Assembly: GCF_000374585.1 (NCBI RefSeq)
Contig: NZ_KB894644.1
Coordinates: 124,001 to 188,000 of the forward strand
DNA length: 64,000 nucleotides
DNA from: Phocaeicola barnesiae DSM 18169 = JCM 13652
GTDB lineage: Bacteria > Bacteroidota > Bacteroidia > Bacteroidales > Bacteroidaceae
Direction of reading: 5' to 3'
Notes under the pieces: model-generated
What the model was told of the DNA's origin: nothing
Databases searched by the model: none
What the model saw: only the letters and a program-made list of their open reading frames with translations
Made by a program: the position numbers and the translations under genes
Shown: in pieces, positions 4,723 through 12,700 of the stretch
Numbering within the stretch: position 1 is the first letter of the stretch
Layout: each line of letters starts with the position of its first letter

Positions 4723-4905
4723 GTCTTATGGCTCTGATATAAAGGGGGTTGAATGGCTTTCAGCGCTACTGATCGCCTTTTTGCGGTGATGTTTCTGCAG
4801 AATCTTCTACCCTTTGCGTTATCGATATGTCTTCTGATAAACTGACAATAAAAGGCAATTATTTGTTACGAATAATAATTTATAAGAAAAAAAACTATCA
4901 TTTTA

Positions 4906-4936
4906 TTTGTAAGTTACAAAAAAGCCTTTACCTTTG
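4906..4936 (+). promoter_or_regulatory. Promoter of the ilv operon
   Basis: TTTG at 4906-4909, a 19-bp spacer, and TACCTTTG at 4929-4936 match the Bacteroides primary-sigma promoter consensus exactly. Transcription should start near 4943, about 28 nt before the leader-peptide ATG and about 200 nt before ilvD, which leaves room for the attenuator. Confidence 0.8.
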
Positions 4937-4970
4937 TAGCCGTAAACAAGACAAGTAAAAACAAAAAATT

Positions 4971-5066
4971 ATGATGGCAACTGATATTCGAATTAACCTG
5001 GCAGTCCTGCAGATTGTACGCGTCGTGGTGGAAGTACCAAGAGGTGAGAAAGGTTCGTGTATGTAG
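4971..5066 (+). CDS. ilv leader peptide (31 aa, rich in Ile/Leu/Val codons)
   Basis: A short ORF from ATG 4971 to TAG 5064-5066. Eleven of its 31 residues are branched-chain: Ile at 6, 8, 15; Leu at 10, 13; Val at 12, 16, 18, 19, 20, 22, the core being LAVLQIVRVVVEV. This is the composition expected of a leader whose translation senses charged tRNA-Ile, -Leu and -Val. The ORF sits between a consensus promoter and a terminator hairpin upstream of ilvD, and its last codons (5043-5053) form the strand that can pair with the terminator. The role as a regulatory leader is inference from composition and layout; no homologue was searched. Confidence 0.8.
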   Translation: MMATDIRINLAVLQIVRVVVEVPRGEKGSCM

Positions 5067-5124
5067 TTGTACGTAAAAGATATGTATGGAAGCCTTTCTC
5101 ACCGGACGATGAGAGAGGCTTTTT
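5043..5124 (+). promoter_or_regulatory. Transcription attenuator: antiterminator versus terminator upstream of ilvD
   Basis: Two structures compete. Terminator: AGCCTTTCTC (5091-5100) pairs over 10 bp (one G-T) with GAGAGAGGCT (5111-5120), followed by TTTTT. Antiterminator: GGTGAGAAAGG (5043-5053) is the exact reverse complement of CCTTTCTCACC (5093-5103) and so sequesters the terminator's 5' arm. The first strand lies inside the last codons of the leader peptide. A ribosome stalled on the upstream Ile/Leu/Val codons leaves it free (antitermination); a ribosome reaching the stop covers it (termination). The pairing is read from sequence; the mechanism is inferred by analogy with enterobacterial ilv/his attenuators. 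Confidence 0.82.
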
Positions 5125-5147
5125 AATTGATAAAGAAGGATTTTGAT

Positions 5148-6950
5148 ATGAAACACCAGTTACGCAGTTCGATGAGTACGGAAGGTCGCCGTATGGCAGG
5201 TGCAAGAGCACTCTGGGTGGCCAATGGTATGAAAAGAGAGATGATGGGTAAGCCGATCATTGCGATTGTGAATTCGTTTACACAGTTTGTTCCCGGACAT
5301 ACACATTTGCATGAAATCGGTCAGTTAGTGAAGGCTGAAATCGAAAAACTGGGTTGCTATGCAGCCGAGTTCAATACAATTGCCATCGACGATGGTATTG
5401 CAATGGGACACGATGGAATGCTTTATTCACTGCCTTCACGTGACTTGATTGCCGATAGCGTAGAATACATGGTGAACGCCCACAAGGCAGATGCCATGAT
5501 CTGCATTTCGAACTGCGATAAGATTACTCCGGGTATGCTGATGGCTGCCATGCGTCTGAATATTCCGGCTGTATTCGTATCAGGTGGACCGATGGAAGCG
5601 CATAAGATAAACGGTGAAAATGCCGATTTGATTACTGCAATGATTAAAGCGGCCGATGCTTCCGTCAGCGATGAGGAAGTGACCCGTATCGAAAATTGCG
5701 CGTGTCCGGGTTGCGGCAGCTGTTCCGGAATGTTTACCGCCAACTCCATGAACTCGTTGACTGAAGCCATCGGACTTTCATTGCCGGGTAACGGTACTAT
5801 TCTGGCTACGCATACCAACCGTATCCAGCTCTTCAAGGATGCTGCCCAGCTGATTGTCAAGAACGCGTTCAAGTATTATGAAGAGGGCGATGACAGTGTA
5901 TTGCCCCGTAGCATCGCTACGCGTCAGGCTTTTATGAATGCAATGACCCTGGATATAGCGATGGGCGGTTCCACCAATACCATTCTGCACTTGCTGGCTA
6001 TTGCCAACGAGGGTGGGGTAGACTTCAAAATGGCTGATATCGACCAATTGAGCCGTCGCGTTCCTTGTCTTTGTAAACTGGCTCCTAATACGCAGCGGTT
6101 TTCTATCCAGGAATGTAACCGTGCCGGCGGTATCCTGAATATCCTGGGAGAACTGAACAAAGGCGGATTGCTGGATACCACGTGCCGCCGTGTCAACGGA
6201 CATACTTTGGCTGAGGATATCGAGGAATACAGCATCATGAAAGAAACGGTTTCTTCGGAAGCCAAGCGTATTTATTCGAGTGCGCCGGGAGGGGTCTTCA
6301 GTAATAAGATGGGCTCTCAAAGCAAGACCTACGATACGCTTGATACGGATCGTGCTGACGGTTGTATCCGCGACATCGAGCATGCGTACAGCAAAGATGG
6401 TGGTCTGGCCGTACTTTTCGGTAATATCGCTCAGAATGGCTGTGTGGTTAAGACAGCCGGTGTAGACGCCAGTATCTGGAAATTCTCCGGACCGGCGAAG
6501 GTCTTCGATTCTCAGGAAGCTGCCTGTGAAGGAGTCTTGGGTGGAAAAGTGGTCAGTGGTGACGTGGTGGTCATTACACACGAAGGACCGAAAGGCGGAC
6601 CGGGCATGCAGGAAATGCTTTATCCCACTTCTTATATCAAATCAAAACATTTGGGAAAAGAATGTGCTTTGATTACGGACGGACGTTTCAGTGGAGGTAC
6701 TTCCGGTTTGAGTATCGGACATATTTCTCCGGAAGCGGCAGCCGGTGGCAATATCGGTAAGATTGTGGACGGTGATATCATCGATATTGATATTCCGAAC
6801 CGCAGCATCAATGTCAGACTGAGTGATGAAGAGCTGGCAGCCCGTCCGATGACGCCGGTAACCCGTAACCGTCAGGTATCGAAAGCATTGAAAGCTTACG
6901 CCAGCATGGTAAGTTCGGCCGATATGGGAGGCGTGAGAATTATTGATTAA
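5148..6950 (+). CDS. ilvD: Dihydroxy-acid dehydratase
   Basis: Converts 2,3-dihydroxy-isovalerate and -methylvalerate to the 2-oxo acids of Val/Leu and Ile synthesis. The ~600-residue protein carries the Fe-S/active-site segments [10 protein letters not shown] (~residue 121) and [17 protein letters not shown] (~186) and the C-terminal [20 protein letters not shown] block of the IlvD/Edd family. The frame is open to a TTG at 5127, but the ATG at 5148 follows AAGAAGGA (5132-5139) at proper spacing and is chosen. First structural gene of the operon; 19 bp separate its stop from the ilvB ATG. Expression is probably governed by the upstream leader attenuator. Confidence 0.96.
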
Positions 6951-6969
6951 CTGGAAGAAAGAAGAGACT

Positions 6970-8673
6970 ATGAGTAAAGAAAAAATAACAGGATCTGAAG
7001 CCTTGATGCGCTCGTTGGAACATGAAGGGGTAAAGACCATCTTCGGTTACCCCGGAGGAGCCATCATGCCGGTGTACGATGCGCTGTATGACCATCGGGA
7101 TAAGTTGAACCATATACTAGTCCGTCATGAACAGGGAGCTGTACACGCGGCTCAAGGATTTGCCCGTGTTTCGGGTGAGGTCGGTGTCTGTCTGGTTACC
7201 AGCGGACCGGGAGCTACCAATACAATTACCGGTGTGGCCGATGCCATGATTGACAGTACGCCGATTGTAGTCATTGCTGGACAGGTGGGTGCCAGCCTGT
7301 TGGGTACCGATGCCTTTCAGGAAGTTGACCTGGTGGGTGTTACGCAGCCTATCTCCAAGTGGAGTTATCAGATTCGTCGGGCAGAAGATGTAGCTTGGGC
7401 CGTTTCACGGGCTTTCTATATTGCGCGTAGCGGTCGTCCGGGTCCGGTTGTCCTGGACTTCGCCAAGAATGCTCAGGTTGATTTGACTGAGTTCGAACCG
7501 ATGATTACCGATTTCATCCGCAGTTATGACCCGGATCCGGAGACAGATCCGAAAGCTGTAGCCGAAGCAGTGGCTTTGATTAATGAGGCAAAGAGACCTT
7601 TGGTGCTGGTCGGACAAGGCGTTGAACTGGGAGGTGCTCAGCAGGAACTGAAGGCTTTTGTCGAAAAGGCTGATATTCCGTGCGGCTGTACGTTGCTGGG
7701 ATTGTCTGCTTTACATTCCGATCATCCTTTGAACAAAGGAATGTTGGGTATGCACGGGAATCTTGGTCCGAACGTTAAGACCAACGAATGCGACGTATTG
7801 ATTGCCGTCGGTATGCGTTTCGATGACCGTGTGACCGGCAAACTGGAAACCTATGCCAAGCAGGCAAAGGTTATCCACCTGGATATCGACCCTTCTGAAA
7901 TCAGCAAGAATGTGAAGGCTGATGTCGCTATCTTGGGTAATTGTAAGCGTACCTTGGCTCTGCTTACCGAACTGATTCAGTCGCATAAGCATACAGAATG
8001 GATTGAAAGTTTCCAGTCGTACGCCGATAAGGAGTTCCAGGAGGTCATCGAGAAAGAAGTTTATCCGGGCGAAGGTCCTATCAATATGGGTGAGGTAGTG
8101 CATGCTGTAAGCGAAGCTACCCACAATGAAGCTATCCTTGTGACAGACGTAGGTCAGAATCAGATGTTTGCTTGCCGTTATTTCAAGTTTTCCAAGGATC
8201 GGAGCATCGTTACCTCCGGCGGTATGGGAACCATGGGATTCTGTTTGCCGGCAGCTATCGGCGCTACCTTCGGAAGACCGGACCGTACGGTCTGTGCCTT
8301 TATGGGCGATGGCGGTCTGCAGATGACGATGCAGGAATTGGGAACACTGATGGAACAGCGCTGTCCGGTCAAGATGATTCTGATGAATAACAATTACCTG
8401 GGTAATGTACGTCAGTGGCAGGCAATGTTCTTCAACCGCCGCTATTCATTTACTCCGATGATGAATCCGGATTATATGCAGATTGCTGCTGCATACGGTA
8501 TTCCTTCACGTCGTGTAACCGAGCGTGAAGCATTGAATGACGGTATTCAGGAGATGCTGCAGACTTCCGGACCGTTCTTGTTGGAGGTTTGTGTGGTGGA
8601 AGAAGGCAATGTATTGCCGATGACTCCTCCGGGAAGTTCCGTCAATTACATGATGTTGAATTTGGATTGCTAA
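6970..8673 (+). CDS. ilvB: Acetolactate synthase, large (catalytic) subunit
   Basis: A thiamine-diphosphate enzyme that condenses pyruvate with pyruvate or 2-oxobutyrate. It shows the N-terminal PYR-domain glutamate in VRHEQGAVHAAQGFAR (~residue 54), the central domain, and the C-terminal PP domain with the GDGGLQMTMQELGTLMEQ...NNN Mg/ThDP motif (~446). Length ~567 is normal for biosynthetic AHAS. The start is ATG 6970 after the GGAAGAAAGAAGAGA stretch; a TTG at 6943 overlapping the ilvD stop is less likely. The small subunit follows 14 bp later, as expected for a complex made in equal amounts. Confidence 0.96.
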   Translation: MSKEKITGSEALMRSLEHEGVKTIFGYPGGAIMPVYDALYDHRDKLNHILVRHEQGAVHAAQGFARVSGEVGVCLVTSGPGATNTITGVADAMIDSTPIVVIAGQVGASLLGTDAFQEVDLVGVTQPISKWSYQIRRAEDVAWAVSRAFYIARSGRPGPVVLDFAKNAQVDLTEFEPMITDFIRSYDPDPETDPKAVAEAVALINEAKRPLVLVGQGVELGGAQQELKAFVEKADIPCGCTLLGLSALHSDHPLNKGMLGMHGNLGPNVKTNECDVLIAVGMRFDDRVTGKLETYAKQAKVIHLDIDPSEISKNVKADVAILGNCKRTLALLTELIQSHKHTEWIESFQSYADKEFQEVIEKEVYPGEGPINMGEVVHAVSEATHNEAILVTDVGQNQMFACRYFKFSKDRSIVTSGGMGTMGFCLPAAIGATFGRPDRTVCAFMGDGGLQMTMQELGTLMEQRCPVKMILMNNNYLGNVRQWQAMFFNRRYSFTPMMNPDYMQIAAAYGIPSRRVTEREALNDGIQEMLQTSGPFLLEVCVVEEGNVLPMTPPGSSVNYMMLNLDC

Positions 8674-8687
8674 AAAGGAACTGGATT

Positions 8688-9242
8688 ATGGAAAATAAGA
8701 AATTATATACGATTATCGTTCATTCGGAAAACATCGCAGGTATCCTGAACCAGATAACCGCCGTGTTTACCCGTCGTCAGATCAACATTGAAAGTCTGAA
8801 TGTATCGGCTTCTTCCATCAAAGGAGTACACAAGTATACCATTACCTGCTGGACTACTCCGGATTCTATCGAGAAGGTAGTCCGTCAGATTGAAAAGAAG
8901 ATGGATGTCATCCAGGCCCATTACTTTACAGACGATGAAATTTTCCAGCAGGAGGTAGCCATGTACAAGGTCTCTACACCGGAGTTTCAGGGAAATCCCG
9001 AAGCGTCAAAGGTCGTACGCCGTTACAGTGCCCACATCGTCGAGGTGAACCCTACTTTTTCGATTGTAGAGCTGACCGGTATGAGTGATGACATTACCTC
9101 GCTGTATCAGGAACTGAGAGGCTTGAAGTGTGTGCTTCAGTTTGTCCGTTCAGGACGCATCGCTGTTTCTACCAGCTGTTTCGAGCGGGTAAATGAATAC
9201 CTGGCTCATCGGGAAGAAAGATATTTACAGGAAAAGAAATAA
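8688..9242 (+). CDS. ilvN: Acetolactate synthase, small (regulatory) subunit
   Basis: A 184-residue protein beginning MENKKLYTIIVHSENIAGIL, an ACT domain (residues ~5-80) followed by a second ALS_ss_C-type domain. It binds the catalytic subunit and usually confers valine feedback inhibition. The frame is open further upstream inside ilvB (from 8589), but ATG 8688, 14 bp after the ilvB stop and preceded by AAAAAGGAACTGG, is the sensible start and puts the ACT domain at the N-terminus. The length is close to other long-form IlvH/IlvN proteins (~160-185). Confidence 0.93.
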   Translation: MENKKLYTIIVHSENIAGILNQITAVFTRRQINIESLNVSASSIKGVHKYTITCWTTPDSIEKVVRQIEKKMDVIQAHYFTDDEIFQQEVAMYKVSTPEFQGNPEASKVVRRYSAHIVEVNPTFSIVELTGMSDDITSLYQELRGLKCVLQFVRSGRIAVSTSCFERVNEYLAHREERYLQEKK

Positions 9243-9251
9243 TGTATCGGT

Positions 9252-9995
9252 ATGACTGAAGAGAATAAAATAGGAACTTATTCATTTGTGGCAGAGCCTT
9301 TCCACGTTGACTTCACCGGAAGGCTCACCATGGGAGTCTTGGGAAACCATCTGCTGAACTGTGCCGGCTTTCATGCGACAGAGCGTGGCTTCGGTATCGC
9401 AACGTTGAATGAAAGTAACTATACGTGGGTCTTGTCCCGTCTGGCTATTGAGTTGGAAGAAATGCCTCTTCAGTACGAATCCTTCAGTGTACAGACGTGG
9501 ATAGAAAACGTGTATCGCCTGTTTACTGACCGCAATTTCGCTATTCTGAACAAGGATGGGAAACCAATCGGTTATGCCCGTTCCATCTGGGCGATGATCA
9601 GCATGGATACCCGTAAACCAGCCGACTTGCTTTCCTTGCATAATGGAAGTATAGTCGATTACATCTGCCAGAAGGAATGTCCGATCGAAAAACCTGGAAG
9701 AATCAAGGTCAATCAGAAGGAACTGGCCGGTGAGGTGGTAACCAAGTACAGTGACATCGATATCAACGGACATGTAAACAGTATCCGGTATATCGAACAT
9801 ATTCTGGACCTTTTCCCGCTGGAGATTTTCCGGGAAAAGCGTATCCGCCGCTTCGAAATGGCTTACAATGCCGAAAGTTATTACGGCGATACACTGGCTT
9901 TCTATAAGGAGCAGGTGTCAGAAAACGAATACGATATAGAAGTCAAGAAGAACGGCCAGGAGGTCGTTGTTCGCAGCAAAGTGATATTTATTTAA
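9252..9995 (+). CDS. Acyl-ACP thioesterase (FatA-like, double hotdog fold)
   Basis: A 247-residue cytosolic protein. The first half contains a hotdog domain with an RLAIELEEMPLQYESFSVQTW strand region; the second half has YSDIDINGHVNSIRYIEHIL, the conserved N-x-H-x-N-x-x-Y block of plant-type acyl-ACP thioesterases (Pfam Acyl-ACP_TE). It should hydrolyse acyl-ACP to free fatty acid. It lies inside the ilv operon, 9 bp after ilvN and 45 bp before ilvC, with the same strand and no terminator on either side, so it is very likely co-transcribed. Substrate chain length or branching cannot be read. The operon position hints at a link between branched-chain keto acids and fatty acids (inference). 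Confidence 0.88.
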   Translation: MTEENKIGTYSFVAEPFHVDFTGRLTMGVLGNHLLNCAGFHATERGFGIATLNESNYTWVLSRLAIELEEMPLQYESFSVQTWIENVYRLFTDRNFAILNKDGKPIGYARSIWAMISMDTRKPADLLSLHNGSIVDYICQKECPIEKPGRIKVNQKELAGEVVTKYSDIDINGHVNSIRYIEHILDLFPLEIFREKRIRRFEMAYNAESYYGDTLAFYKEQVSENEYDIEVKKNGQEVVVRSKVIFI

Positions 9996-10040: not shown

Positions 10041-11084
10041 ATGGCAAAATTGAATTTTGGCGGTGTAATCGAAAATGTAGAGACCCGCGAAGAATTTCCA
10101 TTGGAAAAAGCACGTGAAATCTTGAAAGATGAAACAATTGCTGTCATCGGTTATGGGGTACAGGGTCCAGGTCAGTCTTTGAACCTGCGCGACAACGGTT
10201 TCAATGTAATCGTTGGTCAACGTCAGGGCAAGACTTATGAAAAGGCTGTTGCCGACGGTTGGGTACCGGGTGAAACACTTTTCGATATTGAAACAGCTTG
10301 CGAAAAAGGTACTATCATTATGTGTCTGCTTTCAGACGCAGCTGTCATGTCTGTATGGCCTACCATCAAGAAATACCTGACTCCGGGTAAGGCTCTGTAT
10401 TTCTCTCATGGTTTTGCTATCACTTGGAACGACCGTACCGGTGTAGTTCCTCCAGCAGACATCGATGTCATCATGGTGGCTCCGAAGGGTTCAGGTACTT
10501 CTTTGCGTACCATGTTCCTCGAAGGCCGTGGCTTGAACTCTTCATACGCAGTTTACCAGGATGCTACCGGTAAGGCAATGGACCGTACATTGGCCTTGGG
10601 TATCGGTATCGGTTCCGGTTACCTGTTCGAAACAACTTTCCAGCGTGAAGCTACTTCTGACTTGACCGGTGAACGCGGTTCTTTGATGGGAGCTATCCAG
10701 GGATTGCTGTTGGCACAGTACGAAGTTTTGCGTGAAAACGGTCACTCTCCTTCTGAAGCTTTCAATGAAACGGTAGAAGAGTTGACTCAGTCACTGATGC
10801 CGCTGTTCGCAAAGAACGGTATGGACTGGATGTACGCTAACTGCTCTACAACTGCTCAGCGTGGTGCTTTGGACTGGATGGGCCCGTTCCACGATGCTAT
10901 CAAGCCGGTAGTACAGAAATTGTATGAAAGTGTGAAGAGCGGTAACGAAGCTCAGATTTCTATCGACTCCAACTCTCAGCCGGATTATCGTGAGAAACTG
11001 AATGCCGAACTGAAGGCATTGCGTGAAAGCGAAATGTGGCAGACTGCAGTTACAGTGCGTCAGCTTCGTCCTGAAAACAACTGA
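10041..11084 (+). CDS. ilvC: Ketol-acid reductoisomerase (NADP+)
   Basis: Catalyses the alkyl migration and NADPH reduction that turn acetohydroxy acids into dihydroxy acids. The 347-residue protein has a Rossmann domain (VIGYGVQGPGQSLNLRDNGF, residues ~35-55) and the knotted C-terminal domain with Mg ligands in TSDLTGERGSLMGAIQG. It is a class I (short) enzyme, extended slightly at the N-terminus, as is common in Bacteroidetes. The Rossmann loop reads VIVGQRQGKTYEKA, with arginine and serine/threonine-type residues suited to NADPH. Last gene of the operon; a terminator follows. Confidence 0.96.
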   Translation: MAKLNFGGVIENVETREEFPLEKAREILKDETIAVIGYGVQGPGQSLNLRDNGFNVIVGQRQGKTYEKAVADGWVPGETLFDIETACEKGTIIMCLLSDAAVMSVWPTIKKYLTPGKALYFSHGFAITWNDRTGVVPPADIDVIMVAPKGSGTSLRTMFLEGRGLNSSYAVYQDATGKAMDRTLALGIGIGSGYLFETTFQREATSDLTGERGSLMGAIQGLLLAQYEVLRENGHSPSEAFNETVEELTQSLMPLFAKNGMDWMYANCSTTAQRGALDWMGPFHDAIKPVVQKLYESVKSGNEAQISIDSNSQPDYREKLNAELKALRESEMWQTAVTVRQLRPENN

Positions 11085-12487: not shown

Positions 12488-12528
12488 TAAAAAAGATACT
12501 CCAGCCATTCTCTAATGGTTGGAGTATC
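12488..12528 (-). terminator. Terminator of the minus-strand LytS/LytTR operon
   Basis: A 15-bp inverted repeat (GATACTCCAGCCATT at 12495-12509 against 12514-12528, one G-T pair, 4-nt loop). On the minus strand it is followed by a T run (12488-12494 read as A on plus). It lies about 170 nt beyond the response-regulator stop. The stretch 12306-12487 holds no gene that I can support. Confidence 0.75.
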
Positions 12529-12700
12529 ACAACACAAAAACTAAACTAGACTTAACTAAACTATTCTAATAAGGAAATTTCACAACTTCCTGTCTTATTA
12601 TGTACACCACAAATATAAGCCTTATATTTAGTCTGTCCAAAAAAATCAAGATAAAAGTTGGGATTAGTTGCAAAAAAAAACGTTGTATTTAAAACTTTCC

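Follow-up and report, generated by a model that had tools for sequence, protein, structure and literature searches.

A predicted ribosome-mediated attenuator upstream of the ilv operon of Phocaeicola barnesiae and other Bacteroidales

The enterobacteria control several amino-acid operons by ribosome-mediated attenuation, the leaders being ilvL/ivbL, leuL, hisL, pheL and trpL, and a 1:2 protector hairpin is a feature of these classic attenuators. Here we analyse positions 124001-188000 of contig NZ_KB894644.1 in the 3.62-Mb draft genome of Phocaeicola barnesiae DSM 18169; this whole stretch of 64,000 nucleotides is called the window. We believe the region ahead of its ilvDBN-thioesterase-ilvC operon is very probably a ribosome-mediated transcription attenuator. 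It resembles the enterobacterial systems in having a short open reading frame (ORF) with codons cognate to the product of the operon, a competition between 2:3 and 3:4 pairings, and the position of the ribosome as sensor. It is unlike them in that no conserved 1:2 protector was found and in its promoter, which is that of the Bacteroidales. In the ilv leader family as a whole the leader stop overlaps or follows segment 2, another difference, and all of these comparisons are of design, not of homology.

A direct precedent within the phylum is RF01692, or Bacteroid-trp. Like the ilv leader it combines a peptide leader and a terminator with the first gene of a biosynthetic operon, but it is a Bacteroidete Trp peptide leader while ours is one for Ile, Leu and Val (I/L/V). 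The trpB leader of the source genome matches it with 54.2 bits against a gathering score of 49. The list in Weinberg et al. 2010 gives RF01692 as likely cis-regulatory (PMC2864571). The passages on the Corynebacterium ilvB-II/ilvBNC upstream ORF (uORF) describe a reading frame rich in branched-chain amino acids, with a terminator and an antiterminator before acetolactate synthase genes, as in the ilv leader; that motif differs in belonging to the Actinobacteria, in its usually 15-17 residue peptide and in its first gene (PMC10272879). Closer in phylum, Flavobacterium psychrophilum is credited with 'strong clues' for leader-peptide attenuation, though with no ilv example in the main text, where 'ilv' occurs 0 times (PMC9723704). 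Small ORFs of B. thetaiotaomicron are in one passage called 'reminiscent of leader peptides' (PMC7366714), and a statement in Naville and Gautheret 2010 has it that none were known beyond the Proteobacteria and Actinobacteria except their own cases (PMC2965389).

An earlier reading of the window from its letters alone (the sequence-only reading) did not recall such a leader as characterised in Bacteroides. That stands in so far as a literature search, with subscription journals mostly outside its coverage, found among the matches listed no paper on a Bacteroides ilv leader and no experiment; it does not stand for the phylum, which has RF01692 and the Flavobacterium clues. An abstract by Vitreschak et al. 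from 2004 is also said to mention Bacteroidetes/Chlorobi, so candidate attenuators in that group may already be published. The ilv attenuator is seemingly an addition to a known class, widespread in the Bacteroidales. The classical form of attenuation is known from work on enteric bacteria; here it would be an old and widespread control in the Bacteroidales, dominant gut bacteria, acting on no fewer than four or five biosynthetic operons.

The leader and its alternative pairings

All parts of the system lie on the plus strand. The promoter (4906-4936) has TTTG at 4906-4909, a 19-nt spacer and TACCTTTG at 4929-4936, which we take to match the Bacteroides consensus, and transcription would start near 4944. 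The sequence-only reading had proposed a 31-codon leader with 11 I/L/V codons between the promoter and ilvD, and it is there: the ORF MMATDIRINLAVLQIVRVVVEVPRGEKGSCM occupies 4971-5066, its stop codon is at 5064-5066, and it ends 81 nt upstream of ilvD. The main control codons are the conserved V/L/I codons from V12 to V22 (5004-5036).

The coding nature of the leader is supported by an alignment of 47 Bacteroidaceae-like loci (drawn from 66 close ones among 108), in which columns 37-88 are the leader body. Within the leader body the pairwise indels number 441, every one a multiple of three (432 are 3 nt long, 9 are 6 nt), as counted over sequence pairs that are not independent. Of the 2320 pairwise indels in the spacer 3' of segment 2, just 139 are multiples of three. 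Second codon positions are also the least variable (0.064 vs 0.197 and 0.176 in 44 of the 47 sequences). This pattern points to an ORF under coding constraint, and we predict from the indels that it is translated.

The predicted intrinsic terminator upstream of ilvD spans 5090-5124, with a hairpin at 5090-5121 and a T-run at 5120-5124, and the consensus fold of the 47 sequences supports it. Segment 3, AGCCTTTCTCACC at 5091-5103, is the contested strand, whose partner is either segment 2 or segment 4 (5110-5121). Segment 2 is the antiterminator strand GGTGAGAAAGGTT at 5043-5055. Its perfect core GGTGAGAAAGG (5043-5053) is the longest perfect complement to the 5' arm of the terminator, and the exact 11-nt match that the sequence-only reading had pointed out is confirmed; only 10 of 20000 shuffled leaders do as well. 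The antiterminator can be extended to 13 bp, pairing 5043-5055 with 5091-5103. The stretch of 191 nt that starts at 4945 has a better fold than 200 of 200 shuffles (z -3.84). Within segment 3, GCCTTTCTC is invariant in the 47 aligned relatives, all of which were selected for an arm with CCTTTCTC.

Does the pairing hold when the arm changes? In 109 loci chosen by terminator and ORF, with segment 2 ignored, shuffled leader regions did as well as the native duplex in 508 of 10900 trials. We then took the 27 divergent arms, those with cores lacking CCTTTCTC, and used 82 standard leaders as foreign partners. The native leader paired above the foreign mean in 24 of 27 cases and above at least 95% of the foreign leaders in 12, and Fisher's method over 25 distinct divergent arms gives p = 2.6e-6, not corrected for relatedness. 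Clear compensations occur in L195 (GGAGGGCT/AGCCCTCC), L065 (GGAGGGGCA/TGCCTCTCC) and L090 (TGAGAATGGTTT/AAACCATTCTCA), and also in L203 and L032. These results argue for a mutually exclusive antiterminator, predicted to be conserved with compensating changes that are clear in 12 of the 27. An initial swap test was uninformative, since it scored arms differing only in their flanks as distinct, and 1562 of its 6934 swaps reached the native value. By eye, L078 and L201 have a terminator arm, GCGCTTGCCTGCG, with no clear partner; in both, the terminator loop has a GGATTC(C) that might pair with GGAATCC located 3' of the leader.

Conservation and its limits

The sequence-only reading had set conservation of the leader codons and of the alternative pairing in relatives as its own test, and I/L/V-rich leaders, the antiterminator strand and the terminator do recur across the Bacteroidales. 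We collected 213 ilvD loci from relatives, from named GTDB contigs (the best 80 listed) and from 80 hand-picked upstream stretches spanning genera, and 204 of them had upstream regions that were distinct and no shorter than 180 nt. We applied one fixed rule, which required an intrinsic terminator, a complement to the arm and an ORF 14-50 codons long in which I/L/V codons numbered 8 or more and made up 30% or more. It was positive in 98 of the 204 regions, a proportion that is not a prevalence as the sample was chosen and holds many close relatives, and in 0 of 1020 dinucleotide shuffles; among named loci it was positive in 26 of 76. Tiling of the window on both strands gave 4 matches in 1158 tiles. 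Two are the ilv leader, and the other two overlap at one minus-strand spot near 35.5-35.95 kb, on raw sequence only. Named carriers turned up by a looser scan include Phocaeicola (L035), Bacteroides (L048), Tannerella (L061), Paludibacter (L072), Alistipes (L083), Prolixibacteraceae (L090) and Odoribacter laneus (L106). A promoter of the form TTG-N17-22-TAnnTTTG lies upstream of the leader in 79 of the 94 strict positives whose upstream DNA is long enough, and in 0 of 94 when shuffled.

The geometry is conserved as well, though the rule itself partly ensures this: 98 of the 98 strict positives have 5 or more I/L/V codons at which a stalled ribosome would leave segment 2 free, and in 92 of them half or more of segment 2 lies under a ribosome at the stop. 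Leaders end in two ways. Those of the window's type read through segment 2 and stop shortly 3' of it. Bacteroides-like leaders carry an extra base immediately 5' of segment 2, and their stop codon lies in or at that segment (for example GCG TGA GAAAGG), and the genus-mates L008, L010, L011, L014, L017 and L031 share this extra base and stop position. A ribosome at the stop covers segment 2 in both types, which favours masking by the ribosome and makes a role of the peptide C-terminus less likely.

Beyond the Bacteroidales we examined the regions upstream of 19 distant IlvD relatives (about 35% identical). Two, L297 and L298, clearly have an I/L/V leader and a complement to go with it; three (L301, L303 and L304) have a leader whose pairing is weaker or doubtful; ORFs were listed in L306 and L309 and left uncounted; and 12 showed nothing. 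A 20th region of the distant set, L315, is positive and from the same order. Since IlvD proteins outside the Bacteroidales are only distantly related, this survey says little about spread.

Several results weigh against attenuation as we describe it, or against its generality. The composition of the leader is by itself weak evidence, as at least 11 I/L/V codons in 31 have a probability of 0.067 given the 22.3% in the long ORFs of the window. Conservation carries the weight of the case. Conservation counts are in turn inflated by kinship among the loci. The element is absent, among other lineages, from genus g46 (L112-L121), the genus with the IlvD closest to that of the window, and from nearly all Prevotella/Prevotellaceae loci (of 11, L066 is positive and L053 doubtful). 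Fifteen of the 27 divergent arms are individually unclear, failing to beat 95% of foreign leaders; native pairing in L053, L081 and L092 is under the foreign mean; and swaps among the divergent loci reach the native value in 94 of 642 cases. In the close set the terminator pairs found by RNAalifold vary almost solely on one side, with 1 two-sided pair. Over the 47 sequences RNAalifold also returns the terminator and a 4-bp UGGU/ACCA helix only, so that a conserved 1:2 protector is not among its pairs. In the folding described below, a full-length transcript with the ribosome at Val18 is mixed (4.4 antiterminator and 7.1 terminator pairs), so kinetics must matter, and an RNA free of ribosomes folds at first into the antiterminator (12.4 pairs before segment 4) and reaches the terminator at equilibrium.

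Two observations touch on distribution. The IlvD of the window (5148-6950) shares 84-90% identity with the IlvD of genus g46 (11 genomes) and 80-86% with that of genus-mates, and a gene exchange with a boundary near the ilvD start is possible. By eye, in several loci of genus g38 (L130-L134) the promoter ahead of ilvD is closely followed by a hairpin, with no leader ORF seen; this hairpin is possibly another control.

Ribosome position and rival explanations

We folded the RNA outside an assumed ribosome edge at V18, V20, V22 and the stop, taking a ribosome at the stop to cover about 5046-5076. At Val18 there are 12.5 antiterminator pairs before segment 4 is made. At Val20, with segment 4 present, there are 11.9 antiterminator and 0.5 terminator pairs. 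At Val22 the 8.2 antiterminator pairs formed before segment 4 give way to 0.0, with 11.0 terminator pairs, and at the stop the values are again 0.0 and 11.0. The model therefore puts the limit of the switch between Val20 and Val22, and it bears out the earlier claim that the two pairings exclude each other. The earlier placement of the ribosome needs correction. A ribosome at the stop does mask a strand, 5043-5053, but the contested strand 5093-5103 is not the masked one. On the modelled footprint, then, a ribosome at the control codons would free segment 2 and one at the stop would mask it.

The mechanism we propose would run as follows. RNA polymerase starts transcription, and a ribosome would initiate at 4971, the leader start. 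A shortage of charged Val, Leu or Ile tRNA would make it stall at I/L/V codons up to Val20. A stall at V18-V20 (5022-5030) would leave segment 2 (5043-5055) free to pair with segment 3 (5091-5103) once this is made, the terminator would be blocked, and the operon would be transcribed. If charged tRNAs are ample, the ribosome would reach the stop and cover most of segment 2; segment 3 would then pair with segment 4, and transcription would end at the T-run. We infer the footprint, the co-transcriptional timing and the response to Val, Leu and Ile. Such leaders predict how gut Bacteroides would go from amino-acid uptake over to synthesis.

The analogy with the enterobacterial leaders drawn by the sequence-only reading agrees with the conservation, indels, swaps and folding, and falls short in the protector. 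A candidate protector stem between the leader start and the post-stop spacer (P1), prompted by the minimum-energy fold and the RF01692 structure, is not supported: native stems scored 16.8 vs 15.4 for swapped ones, and 789 of 2050 swaps reached native. As far as computation reaches, ribosome-dependent attenuation is supported.

Could the peptide itself be the sensor? In nascent-chain arrest it would stall the ribosome in response to a free amino acid or another signal rather than to tRNA charging. The core N-L-A-V-L-H-I-I-R-V-V-V is well conserved in the Bacteroidaceae, and among 44 relatives the three central Val codons (5022-5030) are GTC or GTG, GTT twice and GTA never, despite GTA being the commonest Val codon (0.33) in the long ORFs of the window. 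Yet other families have unrelated peptides that are still I/L/V-rich (L195 MKQLVNNIVKVLLVVVCE, L205 MTKSILHIILVVVVLVLIPGAT), and the leaders of other operons use other, pathway-matched amino acids. Arrest peptides usually need their C-terminal end, and here that end is swapped by a frame change in the leaders stopping at GCG-TGA within segment 2. We consider arrest very unlikely.

A ligand-binding riboswitch or T-box, with the ORF incidental, would account for the strong conservation of the leader core nucleotides in the Bacteroidaceae. It would not account for leader indels in multiples of three, and the 47 sequences share no structure beyond the terminator and the 4-bp helix. No Rfam family, RF01692, T-box and riboswitch models included, matches 4850-5250 at E values up to 1, and we regard this explanation as extremely improbable. 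The remaining alternative is that a uORF and an unrelated partial terminator give constitutive partial termination and translational re-initiation with no sensing. Korolev et al. 2016 do propose, in the relevant passages, that leader genes boost translation through re-initiation, with a leader-gene distance peak of 11-14 bp in Bacteroidetes. Our leader stops 81 nt from ilvD, beyond that range; the choice of amino acid tracks the pathway in five operons; and segment 2 tends to follow the arm. The chance that re-initiation explains the locus seems to us close to nil, and we return to attenuation.

Other operons, a shared motif and neighbouring genes

Leaders matched to their pathways stand before other amino-acid operons of the source genome. 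The hisG leader (L215, MIYTAAHHHPHHYLRK) has 5 His in 16 residues and sets ACGGTAGGCT against GGCTTGCCGT; leaders with 3-6 His occur in 10 of the 12 genomes having hisG, the source genome included. The pheA leader (L267, MKTFATYFFFYFFYFYFSNEVKREFACVY) has 14 Phe/Tyr in 29 and a GAAGCGGGA/TCCCGCTTC pairing, and one was found in 12 of 12 genomes, again including the source. The leuA leader (L283, MNNWFLHILLCGLINLLGTPVGSESRAC) has 6 Leu in 28 and a GGGAAGTGAG/CTCACTTCCC pairing, and the trpB leader (L282, MKQSMAYTFFWWRLLQLQKS) contains Trp-Trp. RF01692 reaches its gathering score at 3 of 7 trp loci. No Rfam family does so at the hisG (L215, L216), pheA (L265, L267), ilv (L002, L146, L198) or leuA (L283, L285, L287, L289, L294, L295) loci searched.

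A 5 x 5 swap matrix gives the ilv, his and phe arms their best pairing with the leader of the same operon. For the leu arm the ilv leader is the better partner (33.6 vs 26.0) because the leu and ilv arms are alike, and the trp arm has no preference for its own leader (13.6 vs 13.4-16.6 for the others). By eye, the partner of the GTCGTAAG strand in the trp leader would be the loop and 3' arm, not the 5' arm. Upstream of thrA (L276-L281) the scan found no clear attenuator, with ORFs in 2 of 6 loci only (0/16 and 5/30 Thr/Ile). The six regions nevertheless resemble a conserved leader: most end, by eye, in MTPRG or TTPRG, and they share RNA such as TTTCTACGTGATACACGC.

A short motif, YGYRTR, recurs after the antiterminator strand; in the window the instance is CGTGTATG (5056-5063, plus strand), directly 3' of segment 2. 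The pattern was picked after viewing the data, so these counts are exploratory. It stands right after segment 2 in 77 of 103 ilv spacers, where mononucleotide shuffling predicts 5.8, and in the following 18 nt of 6 of 79. After the antiterminator strand of the other operons it is found in 5/5 leu, 4/4 trp, 7/11 his, 6/10 phe and 3/5 thr spacers. The search patterns missed 2/6 trp, 1/12 his, 2/12 phe and 1/6 thr loci, and the leu count uses 5 of 7 stretches, L291 being short of the leader and L295 having a differing one. Four of the ten phe spacers were read on the wrong strand; the remaining 6 all carry the motif by eye. A spacer hairpin was rejected as its cause, 94 spacers folding no better than dinucleotide shuffles (on average a fraction of 0.47 of the shuffles folded equally well or better).

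The E. coli trp and his leaders contain RNA-polymerase pauses. We propose YGYRTR as a candidate pause element that would let the ribosome catch up, and a pause at CGTGTATG is inferred on this basis. Whether the ilv, leu, his, phe and trp leaders of the Bacteroidales, perhaps with thr, share one attenuator design whose common part is this timing element and not an RNA fold is a tentative idea, to which we give rather less than an even chance. If the pause reading is true, transcription and translation would be coupled at these leaders of the Bacteroidota. Ribosome-mediated attenuation requires the ribosome to match the pace of RNA polymerase, so these leaders make coupling in the Bacteroidota directly testable; the list of phyla given for runaway transcription in a 2026 paper (PMC13323073) is without Bacteroidota.

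The genes downstream are all on the plus strand. The first is ilvD, dihydroxy-acid dehydratase (5148-6950; PRK12448 and TIGR00110 above cut-off). It is followed by ilvB and ilvN for the large and small subunits of acetolactate synthase (ORF limits 6943-8673 and 8589-9242; TIGR00118 and TIGR00119, both above cut-off), by an acyl-ACP (acyl carrier protein) thioesterase gene (9252-9995; PF01643, PF20791) and by ilvC, ketol-acid reductoisomerase (10041-11084; TIGR00465 above cut-off). Their spacing suggests a single transcript. The thioesterase gene lies inside this operon and would therefore share the attenuator; a connection to branched fatty acids is a guess. Farther on, at 12489-12598 of the minus strand, is a match to the Bacteroides small RNA family BTnc049 of Rfam, with 84.4 bits against a gathering score of 81.9.

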